64,000 nt of DNA, from assembly GCF_009709675.1 (NCBI RefSeq), contig NZ_WMLB01000023.1, forward strand, positions 310,001 through 374,000, in the 5' to 3' direction. The DNA is from Agromyces bracchium (lineage in GTDB: Bacteria > Actinomycetota > Actinomycetes > Actinomycetales > Microbacteriaceae). Position numbers and translations under genes: made by a program. Positions 46,583-51,141 of the stretch are shown here, piece by piece. The notes under the pieces are model-generated. The model saw nothing but the letters and a program-made list of their open reading frames with translations, did not search any database and was not told the origin of the DNA. Each line of letters opens with the position of its first letter. Position 1 is the stretch's first letter.

Positions 46583-46590
46583 TGGTCATC

Positions 46591-48360
46591 ATGCGTCGCA
46601 TCACCAAGGTCCTCATCGCCAACCGCGGCGAGATCGCCGTCCGCGTCATCCGCGCCGCCCGCGACTCCGGGCTCGCCTCAGTCGCCGTCTACGCCGACCA
46701 GGACCGCGACGCGCGCCACGTCAAGCTCGCCGACGAGGCCTACGCCCTCGACGGTTCGACGAGCGCCGAGACGTACCTGGTGATCGACAAGCTGCTCTCG
46801 GTCGCCCGCCGCTCGGGCGCCGACGCCGTGCACCCCGGCTACGGCTTCCTCGCCGAGAACCCCGACTTCGCGCGCGCCGTCATCGACGCCGGACTCATCT
46901 GGATCGGACCCTCGCCCGAGGCCATCGAGCGCCTCGGCGACAAGGTCTCGGCCCGCCACGTGGCCGAGAAGGTCGGCGCGCCGCTCGCGCCCGGCACCCT
47001 GAACCCCGTGGCGGATGCCGCGGAGGTGCTCGAGTTCGTCGACGAGCACGGCCTGCCCGTGGCCATCAAGGCCGCGTTCGGCGGCGGCGGGCGCGGACTC
47101 AAGGTCGCGCGCGAGCGCGACGAGGTGGCGGAGCTCTTCGAGTCGGCGACCCGCGAGGCCGTCGCCGCGTTCGGCCGCGGCGAGTGCTTCGTCGAGAAGT
47201 ACCTCGACAAGCCGCGCCACGTCGAGACGCAGTGCCTCGCCGACGAGCACGGCAACGTCGTCGTCGTCTCGACGCGCGACTGCTCGCTGCAGCGCCGCCA
47301 CCAGAAGCTCGTGGAGGAGGCGCCGGCGCCGTTCCTGACCGAGGAGCAGAACCGCCTGCTCTACGAGTCGTCGAAGGCGATCCTGCGCGAGGTCGGCTAC
47401 GTCGGTGCGGGCACGTGCGAGTTCCTCATCGGCCAGGACGGCACCGTCTCGTTCCTCGAGGTGAACACGCGCCTCCAGGTCGAGCACCCCGTGTCCGAGG
47501 AGGTCACGGGCCTCGACCTCGTGCGCGAGCAGTTCCGGCTCGCCGAGGGCGGCACCCTCGACTACCCCGACCCCGTCACGACCGGTCACTCGTTCGAGTT
47601 CCGCATCAACGGCGAGGACCCGGGCCGGAACTTCCTCCCCGCGCCGGGCCCGATCCACCAGCTCCGCTTCCCCGGCGGCCCCGGGGTGCGCGTCGACTCC
47701 GGCGTGACCAGCGGCGACGAGATCTCGGGCGCGTTCGACTCGCTGCTCGCCAAGCTCATCGTCACGGGCGCGACCCGCACGGACGCGCTCGAGCGGGCCC
47801 GCCGCGCGCTCGACGAGTTCGACGTGGCCGGCCTGCCGACCGTGCTGCCCTTCCACCGCGACATCGTCCGCAACACGGCCTTCGCGCCCGACGGCGACGA
47901 GCCGTTCTCGGTGTACACGCGCTGGATCGAGACGGAGTACGACAACCGGCTCGAGCCGTGGACCGGCGAGCTCGCCGAGACCAAGGGCCCCGGCGCCCGC
48001 ACGGCGCTCGTGGTCGAGGTCGACGGGCGACGCATCGAGGTGTCCCTCCCGAAGCGCCTCGCGGGCGCACCGTCGACGAACGGAACCCGCGGGCCGGCTC
48101 CGCGCCGACGGGCCGCCCACCACTCGGTCGACACGTCGACCGGCGACGCCGTGACCGCCCCGATGCAGGCCACGGTCGTCAAGGTCGCCGTCGCCGAGGG
48201 CGACAAGGTCGTCAAGGGCGACCTCGTGCTCGTGCTCGAGGCGATGAAGATGGAGCAGCCCATCGTCGCGCACAAGGACGGCATCGTCGGCCTCGTGAAC
48301 GCCGAGCCGGGCTCCACCGTCTCGAGCGGCCACCTGCTCCTGTCGATCGCCGACGTGTAG
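46591..48360 (+). CDS. accA3: Acyl-CoA carboxylase alpha subunit (biotin carboxylase + BCCP)
   Basis: 589 residues. Biotin carboxylase N-domain ([20 protein letters not shown]), ATP-grasp domain with [20 protein letters not shown] and [21 protein letters not shown]-domain ([20 protein letters not shown]), a linker, and a C-terminal BCCP with [11 protein letters not shown]; Lys553 is the biotinylated residue. It carboxylates biotin with ATP and bicarbonate for the AccD subunits and is the substrate of BirA. The name follows the syntenic M. tuberculosis gene. The inverted-repeat cassette begins immediately after its stop. Confidence 0.95.
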
Positions 48361-48460
48361 GGACCGCTGCTTTTCTCAGGAGTTCTTCGGCGAGGCGCCT
48401 GATTCATCGGCGTTTCTTCCTGAGAACCGCGCAATTGCGCCCCATCGGTCCTGAGAACGG
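48361..48460 (+). repeat. Left inverted-repeat arm with three TTCTCAGGA sites
   Basis: Nonamer sites: 48373-48381 (forward), 48418-48426 and 48449-48457 (both reverse, TCCTGAGAA). The outer sites 1 and 2 can pair as a 9-bp stem. A 12-bp palindrome GCGCAATTGCGC (48429-48440) is present only in this arm. Confidence 0.75.
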
Positions 48461-48519
48461 TGCCGTGCCGGGCAGATGCGGATGCCGCGCGCGCACGCCA
48501 TGTGACCGTGGGCCGCGGG

Positions 48520-49407
48520 TCATCCCAGCGCAGCGAGCGCCCGCACGACCCGCATCGCGGCGGCCTTCGGGTCCGCGAGCACGTCGCTCGCGGCCAGCCG
48601 CAGGGTCGGGATGCCGCGACGCAGCAGCTCCTCATCGCGCCGACGGTCGCGGATGAACGCTTCGCGATCGCCGTGATACGCGAAGCCGTCGGTCTCGACG
48701 GCGAGCCGCCCAGCGACCAGGAAGTCGATGAAGCCGACGCCGTCGAACGGCACCTGCTGGAGGAAAGGCACCCCGAGCTCGCGCAGCTCGATCGCGAGCA
48801 GCGTCTCGACACCTGATCCGTCGCGGCCCCCGATCACGATCGGACCGACTCGATCCGGTGCGGCGTCCTCGAGGAATCGCCGGGCTGCCTCCACCCCGAG
48901 GAACCCGAGCGTCACGGCCGATTCGAAGGCGGCGGCGACCTCGGGCCGTGGCCGACAGTGGGCGAGGTCGGCGAGAGCTCGCTCGACCGGAACCCGCCAG
49001 GCGTCCTCGCCGTCCCGAGCACCGACCGCGATGTCGGTCCAGTGGAGGCGAACCTCGCTGAGGTGGCGATCCGAGGTGAGCGGCTCCTCGCTCGGCACCA
49101 GGGCCCGGTTCGTGCGGAGCCGGGCCGCGTTGACCGGCAGCGCCACATGCACCTCCGGTGTCGAAGCGGCCCAGATCCCGTAGCTGGCTGCGGCGCTCAC
49201 GCACCCCAGCCGGCCGCCGACTCGCACCGCGGTGACGGCGGCAGCGGATGCCTCGGGGCCTGCGTAGTGCGCCCGACGTACGCGCGCGAGCTCACCGGCA
49301 CGTACGGCCCGGGAGACGTCGACGCCGCGGACACCCGCCCCGAGAATCGCCGCGCGCGTGGCGATACCTCCGAAGGATGAGACCACTGCTGCCGGGGAGG
49401 GAGTCAC
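48520..49407 (-). CDS. AbiEi-like N-terminal domain plus DUF559 (Vsr/PD-(D/E)XK-like) nuclease domain protein
   Basis: 295 residues from the GTG at 49407. Residues about 8-60 resemble the AbiEi antitoxin winged-helix (GGIATRAAILGAGVRGVDVSRAVRAGELARVRRAHY). The C-terminal 100 residues are a DUF559 domain: GVETLLAIELRELGVPFLQQ with Glu201, GVGFIDFLVAGRLAVETDGFAYHGD with Asp228, Glu238 and Asp240, then RRRDEELLRRGIPTLRL. The E...D...ExD set needed for a PD-(D/E)XK nuclease is intact. Such proteins are common and multicopy in actinobacteria with no known function. No neighbouring toxin is present. The start could be up to 21 codons longer (GTG-like at 49470). Confidence 0.72.
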   Translation of the reverse strand: MTPSPAAVVSSFGGIATRAAILGAGVRGVDVSRAVRAGELARVRRAHYAGPEASAAAVTAVRVGGRLGCVSAAASYGIWAASTPEVHVALPVNAARLRTNRALVPSEEPLTSDRHLSEVRLHWTDIAVGARDGEDAWRVPVERALADLAHCRPRPEVAAAFESAVTLGFLGVEAARRFLEDAAPDRVGPIVIGGRDGSGVETLLAIELRELGVPFLQQVPFDGVGFIDFLVAGRLAVETDGFAYHGDREAFIRDRRRDEELLRRGIPTLRLAASDVLADPKAAAMRVVRALAALG

Positions 49408-49600
49408 GGAGATCGAGTGTGGCGTCGCCGGGCCGCGTCGGCCCCGCCTGTGCGCGCATTCGCAGACCACGCGTGCGGGCGGTGCGGCTGTGGAGGACGA
49501 CCACCCGTGAGACGCCTCGCCCGAGGCATCCGCTCGCCAGAGCCGCCACGCGATCGCACGCCCGCCCGCGTCTCGGCCGGAACCCTACGCGCCGGTTCCA

Positions 49601-49700
49601 CCCTTCTCAGGAACGCGGAGCGCCCTACATGCCGTTCTCAGGAAGACACGCCGTCGAAACTCGCGACACGCCGAATAACTCCTGAGAAAAGAAGCCAGCC
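49601..49700 (-). repeat. Right inverted-repeat arm with three TTCTCAGGA sites
   Basis: Nonamer sites: 49604-49612 and 49635-49643 (forward), 49680-49688 (reverse). Read from the outer end these mirror the left arm exactly in order and spacing. The outermost 20-nt block matches the left arm at 19 of 20 positions (TTTTCTCAGGAGTTATTCGG against one C for A). Confidence 0.75.
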
Positions 49701-49710
49701 GGCCGCCGGG

Positions 49711-51141
49711 TCAGCGGACGACGTGCATCGCGCGCGCGGCGTCGGTGAGCGAGCCGGTCAGCGACGGGTAGACCGGGAACGCCTCGGCGAACTGGTCGAC
49801 CGTGAGCCGGTGCTCGACCGCGAGCGCGAGCGGGAAGATCAGCTCCGACGCCTTCGGCGCCACGATCACGCCGCCGATGATCGCGCCCGACCCGGCCGAG
49901 GCGAACAGCTTCACGAAGCCGTCGCGGATCCCCATCATCTTCGCCCGCGGGTTCGATGCGAGCGGGAGCTTGTAGACCGTCCCGGGCACGACGCCCTCGT
50001 CGATCTCCTTCTCGGTCCAGCCGACCGTGGCGATCTCGGGCTGAGTGAAGATGTTGGACGTGATGTTGCGGTTCTCGGGCGGGTTCACGATGTCGCCCAT
50101 CGCATGGAAGACGGCCGTGCGGCCCTGCATCGAGGCGACGGAGGCCAGCGGCAGGAAGGTCGTGCAGTCGCCCGCGGCGTAGATGTTCGGCATCGACGTG
50201 CGGGCGACCCGGTTGACCCGGATGTGGCCCGACTCGGCCAGCTGCACGCCCGCCTCCTCGAGGCCGAGGTCGGCCGTGTTCGGCACGGAGCCGACCGCCA
50301 TGAGGCAGTGCGAACCGCGCACCTCGCGACCGTCGGAGAGGGTGGCGAGCACCCCGTCGCCGTCGACGACGACCGAGTCGGCGCGCGACTTCGAGAGCAC
50401 CTTCATGCCGTTGCGCTTGAAGACCTTCTCGATGACGGCGGCCGCGTCGGCGTCCTCGCCGGGCAGCACGTGCTCGCGGCTCGAGATGAGCGTGACCTTC
50501 GCGCCGAGCGCACGGTAGGCCGACGCGAACTCGGCCCCGGTGACCCCGGAGCCGACGACGATGAGGTGCTCGGGCACCTGCTTCAGCGCGTAGAGCTCGG
50601 TCCACGTCAGGATGCGCTCGCCGTCGGGCACCGCCGACGGGAGCACGCGCGGCGTCGCACCGGTCGAGATGACGAGCGTGTCGGCGTCGATGCGGTCGAA
50701 GTCGGTGCCGCCCTTCGCCGTCGCCACGATGATCGCGTTGGGTCCGTCCAAGCGCCCCTCGCCCTGCACGAGGCGCACCCCGGCGTCGAGCAGGTTCGTG
50801 CGCATGTCCTCGGACTGCTGCGCGGCGAGGCCGAGCAGGCGCTTGTTCACGGCCTGGAGGTTGATCGCGACCTCGGGCTTCACGGCCTTCGCGTCGCCGC
50901 CGCGCGCGAAGAACTGCACGCCGAGGTCGGCGGCCTCCTTCACGGCGTTCGAGGCCTCGGCCGTCGCGATGAGCGACTTCGACGGCACGACGTCGGTGAG
51001 CACCGCCGACCCGCCGACGCCGGCGCGCTCGACGAGGGTGACCTCGGCCCCGAGCTGCGCGGCGGCGAGGGCGGCTTCGTACCCGCCGGGGCCACCTCCG
51101 AGTACGGCGATCCTCTGGGTGCGCTCGAAGGTGGTGTGCAT
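49711..51141 (-). CDS. lpdA: NAD(P)H-quinone dehydrogenase, flavoprotein disulfide reductase family (LpdA-like)
   Basis: 476 residues. FAD loop RIAVLGGGPGGYEAALAAAQ, second dinucleotide loop LIVVGSGVTGAEFASAYRAL, NIYAAGDCTTFLPLASVA, and a dimerisation domain ending LTGSLTDAARAMHVVR. The active-site segment reads GGSAVLTDVVPSKSL: both redox Cys of dihydrolipoamide dehydrogenase (GGTCLNVGCIPSK) are missing. This fits Rv3303c-type enzymes that reduce quinones. ATG at 51141 lies 7 nt after GAGAAT, a leaderless-type start; ATG 51150 overlaps that box. Confidence 0.88.
   Translation of the reverse strand: MHTTFERTQRIAVLGGGPGGYEAALAAAQLGAEVTLVERAGVGGSAVLTDVVPSKSLIATAEASNAVKEAADLGVQFFARGGDAKAVKPEVAINLQAVNKRLLGLAAQQSEDMRTNLLDAGVRLVQGEGRLDGPNAIIVATAKGGTDFDRIDADTLVISTGATPRVLPSAVPDGERILTWTELYALKQVPEHLIVVGSGVTGAEFASAYRALGAKVTLISSREHVLPGEDADAAAVIEKVFKRNGMKVLSKSRADSVVVDGDGVLATLSDGREVRGSHCLMAVGSVPNTADLGLEEAGVQLAESGHIRVNRVARTSMPNIYAAGDCTTFLPLASVASMQGRTAVFHAMGDIVNPPENRNITSNIFTQPEIATVGWTEKEIDEGVVPGTVYKLPLASNPRAKMMGIRDGFVKLFASAGSGAIIGGVIVAPKASELIFPLALAVEHRLTVDQFAEAFPVYPSLTGSLTDAARAMHVVR

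Follow-up and report, generated by a model that had tools for sequence, protein, structure and literature searches.

The closest described systems are the REPIN/RAYT systems of proteobacteria and others (REPtrons and TIRtrons), for which excerpts of two papers report a repeat type matched to the gene and species-specific families (PMC3733652, PMC8049555). The excerpts outline the REPtron as a single-copy gene between mirrored repeats, accompanied by many solo extragenic repeats mostly downstream of genes (PMC3733652), and the gene of RAYT systems as vertically inherited (PMC8049555). The locus analyzed here resembles these systems in that mirrored copies of a dispersed repeat flank the gene, in all 11 orthologs found. 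It differs in both partners: RAYTs are HUH tyrosine transposases, whereas here a PD-(D/E)XK nuclease is joined to an AbiEi-like winged helix, and REPs are 20-40-bp palindromes with a GTAG tag, whereas the repeats here are multi-site arrays of about 80-130 bp. No Y1 (HUH tyrosine) transposase domain was found among the Pfam matches of the nuclease, and no conserved GTAG in an alignment of 28 elements, whose invariant columns were three nonamers.

By Pfam, the nuclease domain is the same as in Vsr-like/DUF559/MTES_1575 proteins. Vsr differs in acting on T:G mismatches. In the available parts of the literature the MTES_1575 domain is named as a Vsr-type REase (PMC3710099) and a role in very-short-patch repair is proposed for Caulobacter VsrA, a DUF559 Vsr-like protein (PMC12907096); those parts of both papers mention no cognate flanking or dispersed repeats, unlike the case described here. 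The winged helix recalls the AbiE type IV toxin-antitoxin systems, but a nuclease domain follows it, and no AbiEii nucleotidyltransferase toxin gene lies beside the nuclease, whose neighbors are accA3-like and lpdA-like. As with a homing endonuclease, cutting followed by copying could underlie the spread of this nuclease, but here the gene stays put while the sites multiply, and homing endonucleases are defined by cutting a set target that lacks the element; one ortholog (L146) matches a PADLOC model named homing endonuclease (E 4e-6). The mirrored ends of Tn7 and Mu enclose a DDE transposase, whereas the sole gene found between the arms here is the nuclease, with no DDE transposase inside the mirrored ends. 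We treat the system as a new kind because, homing endonucleases aside, the tests found every known kind compared to lack agreement in a defining feature; counting any enzyme-partnered dispersed repeat as one kind would make it a variant. A first-pass annotation of this DNA knew of no description of the arrangement, and we likewise found none of the nuclease/array association in the open-access literature searched.

The window, meaning the whole 64,000-nt stretch analyzed, contains the following features at this locus.

46588..48360, plus strand: accA3-like gene, biotin carboxylase/carrier subunit (Pfam); core-gene context, outside the system
48373..48457, plus strand: left array element, one of 17 copies in the genome; sites at 48373-48381 (+), 48418-48426 (-) and 48449-48457 (-)
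48520..49407, minus strand: nuclease gene, about 295 aa by ortholog comparison
49604..49688, minus strand: right array element, mirrored, one of 17 copies in the genome; sites at 49680-49688 (-), 49635-49643 (+) and 49604-49612 (+)
49711..51135, minus strand: lpdA-like gene, dihydrolipoamide dehydrogenase-like (Pfam); core-gene context, outside the system

The first-pass annotation had placed two inverted arms between the accA3-like and lpdA-like genes, with six nonamers in the order forward-reverse-reverse from the outside and start-to-start distances of 45 and 31 nt in both arms, and all of this was reproduced, the flanking genes by Pfam. Its hand estimate of about 72% ungapped identity over 100 bases was accurate: the arms are identical at 72/100 bases when aligned in inverted orientation, and the best-offset identity of 300 random pairs of window segments was at most 50/100. 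Exact TTCTCAGGA occurs six times in the window against 0.20 expected, a number reached in 0/100 shuffles, and all six copies sit in the two arms. The left array, with linkers of 36 and 22 nt, begins 12 nt past the accA3-like stop, and the right array 22 nt past the lpdA-like stop.

The nuclease reading frame (48520-49470, minus strand) is open from a GTG at 49470, giving 316 aa, and residue numbers below refer to it. An AbiEi-like winged helix, weakly matched, is followed by a Vsr-type PD-(D/E)XK nuclease (MTES_1575/DUF559). The earlier identification of an AbiEi/DUF559 protein holds for the nuclease domain, with Pfam matches above the curated cut-offs for both MTES_1575 (E 2e-10, 41 bits against 38.2) and DUF559 (E 3e-4, 21.3 bits against 20.6); the AbiEi resemblance is weak (Pfam AbiEi_4 E 0.008, below the curated cut-off; PADLOC AbiEi E 1e-4). 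The E..D..ExD set is intact, as had been noted, and kept in relatives except for one residue: E222 is present in 18/18 sequences, D249 and D261 in 17/17 and E259 in 16/17 with one Q, one partial sequence being without the last three positions. In four pairs dN/dS is 0.15-0.24, so the gene evolves under purifying selection. Single-sequence fold prediction was poor (mean pLDDT 36), and no solved structure matching the protein by sequence was found. Carriage on plasmids or phages was rejected, the protein having no match at E 1e-5 in plasmid and phage collections. So was a phage origin: two viral contigs fit a two-site pattern, but in AT-rich sequence that has no third site.

A search of the source genome (genus Agromyces, soil bacteria; 4.16 Mb in 47 contigs) for further triplets of 45/31 spacing found 15 beyond the two arms. 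All 51 copies of TTCTCAGGA in the genome fall within these 17 triplet elements, of geometry TTCTCAGGA-N36/37-TCCTGAGAA-N21/22-TCCTGAGAA; despite the one geometry, first linkers average just 65% identity. Two elements flank the nuclease gene and 15 lie away from it. The description of the arms as enclosing only a nuclease gene is thus true locally and misleading for the genome: arms without a DUF559 gene are the rule, though not clearly as ordinary terminators, and the absence of copies elsewhere, which the first-pass annotation would have counted against itself, did not materialize. In 10/17 elements a stop codon is found at a distance of 5-22 nt from the lone-site end. Neighboring genes are unrelated and mostly housekeeping (argininosuccinate synthase, aminotransferases, prephenate dehydratase, DUF445 and others), and no transposase was found among the 20 flanking proteins scanned.

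In a sample of 199 Microbacteriaceae genomes, one, the source genome, contains the exact triplet; a scan of 84,980 species, which may omit the source genome, returned three other Agromyces records. A sequence model of the element matches at least 19 of 60 Agromyces genomes, with many matches in G219, G079, G222 and G220, in whose elements the linkers vary while the sites (TTYTCAGGM) and spacing persist. A nuclease homolog at E 1e-10 or better is found in 55/60 Agromyces genomes. We delimited an ortholog group of 41-70% identity and at least 165 bits, all other homologs scoring at most 126 bits; it is present in 11/60 genomes, the source included, and missing from 49. Mirrored arrays with a TCAGGA core stand on both sides of the gene in 11/11 orthologs, which bears out the earlier suggestion that nuclease and arms belong together and that the arms resemble arrays for protein binding, binding itself being predicted. 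Five types of motif and geometry occur among the 11.

Type A: TTYTCAGGA-like, three sites, 45/30-31 (four genomes)
Type B: TTTTCAGGA, two sites 117 apart (three genomes)
Type C: TTTTCAGGA, 78 apart (one genome)
Type D: AACTCAGGAAC, 78 apart (two genomes)
Type E: CAGAATTCAGGA arrays (one genome)

Array types coincide with clades on the nuclease tree, on which the five types need 4 changes, the minimum; support for the type A clade is moderate (82/87). The gene lies within 1.5 kb of accA3 and/or lpdA in 11/11 Agromyces orthologs (both in 7), in 10/28 loci of other genera (both in 7) and in 0/19 paralogs. In G079 and G222 an amino-acid permease gene intervenes between nuclease and lpdA. The G079 locus (L144 2443-2570) also has further repeats next to the right arm, a tandem repeat of about 28 bp on its inner side and an 8-bp repeat on its outer side.

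The first-pass annotation had proposed a hopping single-gene cassette. This is not supported, because the gene is inherited largely in place beside accA3/lpdA in all 11 orthologs; it is the array that has multiplied, 15 of the 17 copies in the source genome standing without the gene. We accordingly rejected a mobile cassette. Orthologs do not occupy a variety of genomic positions, whereas the more distant paralogs sit away from this locus. The vertical divergence in place that the annotation had named as contrary to its proposal is largely what is seen for the gene, but the arms change.

If the arrays belong to the nuclease, each type is expected to be dispersed in its own genomes, and it was so found. 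Type A has 17 elements in the source genome and, among the matches listed, many in G219, G079 and G222. The type B pattern gave 15, 14 and 20 matches in G212, G251 and G235 and 0 in five other genomes. A pattern for C/D/E, which cannot separate these three types although their sequences differ among the matches listed, gave at least 21 matches in G254, 26 in G230, 29 in G238 and 8 in G244, and 0, 1 and 0 among the matches listed in the B genomes G212, G251 and G235. CAGAATTCAGGA, of type E, occurs 26 times in G244, once in G254 and not at all in the source genome or G212. Reversed-pattern controls for types B, C/D/E and E had 0 matches. Arrays were also found in genomes without an ortholog, all 49 of which were searched for type A and G201 alone for types B-E: 10-11 type-A elements occur in G220, and type-E arrays (at least 4 and 15 matches in two patterns) in G201, which had been picked as a negative control. 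These would reflect gene loss or another driver. The single element of G224 (L132), a genome without the ortholog, has the same linkers as L086 of G079 between homologous genes. On C1 of G079 (L082-L101, L141) elements occupy at least 41 places, most of which fall in the stretch from 0.5 to 2.4 Mb on a length of 3.8 Mb; among the matches listed, orientation is mostly minus below 1.5 Mb (17/23) and mostly plus above (12/18).

Some elements can be compared at the same place in different species. One lies between the same genes in four genomes (L017 in the source, L099 in G079, L126 in G220 and L103 in G222), and linker likeness among these four, 0.25-0.53, is no higher than that of random cross-species pairs, whose genome-pair means are 0.35-0.51. 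Over 23 shared-site pairs it was 0.25-0.81 with a mean of 0.49, taking the best value where a locus holds two elements; one G220-G222 pair is 0.81 alike, as expected from plain descent. Within genomes, linker likeness is 0.65 (source), 0.59 (G079), 0.43 (G222) and 0.38 (G220), so that homogenization, in the sense of greater likeness within a genome than between species, is seen in two of the four, the source and G079, and not in G222 or G220. A block, GTAAYGGGTCGG, is present in 17/28 elements of G079 and, by the same pattern, in 0/54 elements of six other genomes; the G079 positions that carry it include three also occupied in other species (L084, L094, L099). At least three intergenic sites outside the nuclease locus that hold type A in one species are occupied by C or E in a second. 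Three sites combine type A with type D, of which one is about 6 kb from the nuclease locus and one belongs to the former set as well; about one type-switched shared site is expected by chance, on a rough estimate that assumes 2,500 gene pairs. None of the 17 type B sites of G235 is common to the other species. By these comparisons, array sequence turns over at sites whose position and spacing are retained. Neither a target-site duplication nor a clean insertion was observed, and two sites compared in the close relative G221 are simply without the element. At the place of one source-genome element, G221 (L303 2402-2598) has direct repeats with CACACCGATCGGTTC instead.

The arrays are associated with the nuclease, and their motif and geometry covary with nuclease clade, which suggests that enzyme and repeats evolve together. 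The nuclease probably binds the arrays and drives their copying and replacement by cutting. The reading we favor, with somewhat better than even confidence, is a nuclease-partnered dispersed-repeat system, comparable to REPIN/RAYT without a transposase, in which arrays would be bound, cut and copied by repair. The gene is inherited largely in place at accA3/lpdA between two mirrored multi-site arrays, with many solo copies of the same array between other genes. The winged helix would recognize 9-12-bp TCAGGA-core sites at fixed spacing, and the nuclease would nick or cut at or beside the array. Repair would then copy array sequence from another copy in the genome, now and then into a new intergenic site, and such conversion would adjust the array copies within a genome to whatever specificity its nuclease has at the time, with the result that motif and geometry would drift jointly between species.

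AbiEi antitoxins autoregulate via inverted repeats, which counts toward a different reading, in which the protein is a repressor of AbiEi-like type that carries a nuclease domain; the arms would be autoregulatory operators and the dispersed arrays the operators of a regulon. The AbiEi-like N-terminus, weakly matched, the multi-site inverted arrays, which suit a regulator, and the keeping of sites at shared positions across species all favor it. We nevertheless find it unlikely: merely 11 of 82 elements from seven genomes lie between divergent genes, against 50 between tandem and 21 between convergent genes (gene boundaries here, and for shared sites, are from a simple codon-usage gene caller), the lone-site end of many source-genome elements is close to a stop codon, the neighboring genes are unrelated and mostly housekeeping, and the catalytic residues are kept. 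The location after stop codons and the convergent settings would fit REP-like terminators, or elements of RNA 3′ ends, with no relation to the nuclease, two copies of which were gained beside the gene. Sites 1 and 2 of the element do form a 9-bp inverted repeat, and a terminator-like stem (1 found against 0.4 expected) is found in the interval from the lpdA stop to the right arm, with a T-rich tail that enters the outer end of the arm. This stem is outside the array, however, and the left arm yielded no such stem; the Rfam matches numbered just three, all below threshold and within the nuclease gene. Moreover, positions of the would-be RNA stem vary regardless of pairing, with C-A in 7/52 elements, which weakens an RNA stem and favors DNA binding instead. 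With lineage-specific motifs on both sides of all 11 orthologs that track the nuclease tree, unrelated terminators seem very unlikely.

Dispersal of the kind shown by MITEs, and long palindromes in some lineages, would also suit miniature transposable elements moved by an unseen transposase, with the nuclease as cargo or bystander of an old copy. Against this, the association recurs with different motifs in orthologs, paralogs and homologs of other genera, all 51 source-genome sites are intact, unlike those of decaying MITEs, and the flanking proteins scanned include no transposase, and we consider it decidedly improbable. Strict spacing and strong site conservation are likewise features of chromosome-organizing sites such as matS, KOPS or parS, for which the nuclease would be the site-binding protein. 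Among the matches listed, the 41 places of G079 are clustered (Rayleigh p about 3e-5) and switch orientation around 1.5 Mb, but no significant clustering was found in G222, G238 or G235, and 49 of 60 Agromyces genomes do without the ortholog; we give this reading hardly any credence.

The first-pass annotation had asked whether other DUF559-type genes have such arms, and they often do. As controls we took the 19 Agromyces homologs that do not belong to the ortholog group; these often carry arrays too, built on different motifs, for example GCATGAGAATC, TTCGCAGGAT and GTTGCAGGA. A GCATGAGA pattern occurs in 11/60 Agromyces genomes, with 6-12 copies in five of them, and in G215 4/6 copies are at the nuclease locus. 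In the family, a homolog at E 1e-12 is present in at least 109/169 genomes and at least 62/85 Microbacteriaceae genera. Inverted arm scores exceed 95% of mismatched pairs at 9/11 orthologs, 8/18 paralogs and 18/27 loci of other genera, the mismatched-pair null being restricted to other genera; no locus exceeds the 99% point, which shared neighbor genes inflate. TCAGGA is denser beside the gene than farther from it, at 5.56 against 0.45 per kb for orthologs and 2.30 against 0.30 per kb for other genera; enrichment near the gene is not consistent for four control 5-mers, of which ACGGA is up to 2.4-fold denser. (Two short loci, L156 and L265, are left out of the arm-score and density comparison, and L158, with stop codons within the matched stretch, out of the protein alignment.) A CAGGAG pattern for other genera has 5, 7, 9, 6 and 4 copies in five of eight gene-bearing genomes and no match in the other three; none of eight gene-less genomes matches it, and one of these has one match to the reversed control.

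As the earlier idea had it, a nuclease-linked repeat would help explain the multicopy orphan DUF559 genes. Extending the favored reading, we propose, tentatively and at rather less than even confidence, that the AbiEi-like winged-helix/Vsr-type orphan family of Microbacteriaceae, perhaps more widely, consists of resident systems in each of which a nuclease would maintain its cognate arrays by cutting and repair overwriting, an intragenomic homing without transposase. Our confidence in this proposal and in the favored reading is held down because linkers are homogenized in just two of four genomes. If the proposal is true, nuclease specificity and dozens of scattered sites evolve jointly, one genome can host several such pairs, and a population of sites would be kept in step with its enzyme with no transposase. 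An unannotated multicopy nuclease family gains a concrete genetic partner and a testable role, and its members offer a natural series in which protein and DNA specificities are matched, with five or more in a single genus, for studying the evolution of DNA recognition.

The source genome has a second nuclease (34% identity) at L344 (C40:1-3000, gene 173-1003), with inverted GTTCGCAGGA arrays near 45-58, 1198-1259 and 1314-1375. It also has two GCATGAGAATC...GATTCTCATGC elements, L345 (C37:60469) and L346 (C44:328227), possible relics of a third system; in other Agromyces, the GCATGAGAATC...GATTCTCATGC repeat flanks paralogous nucleases.
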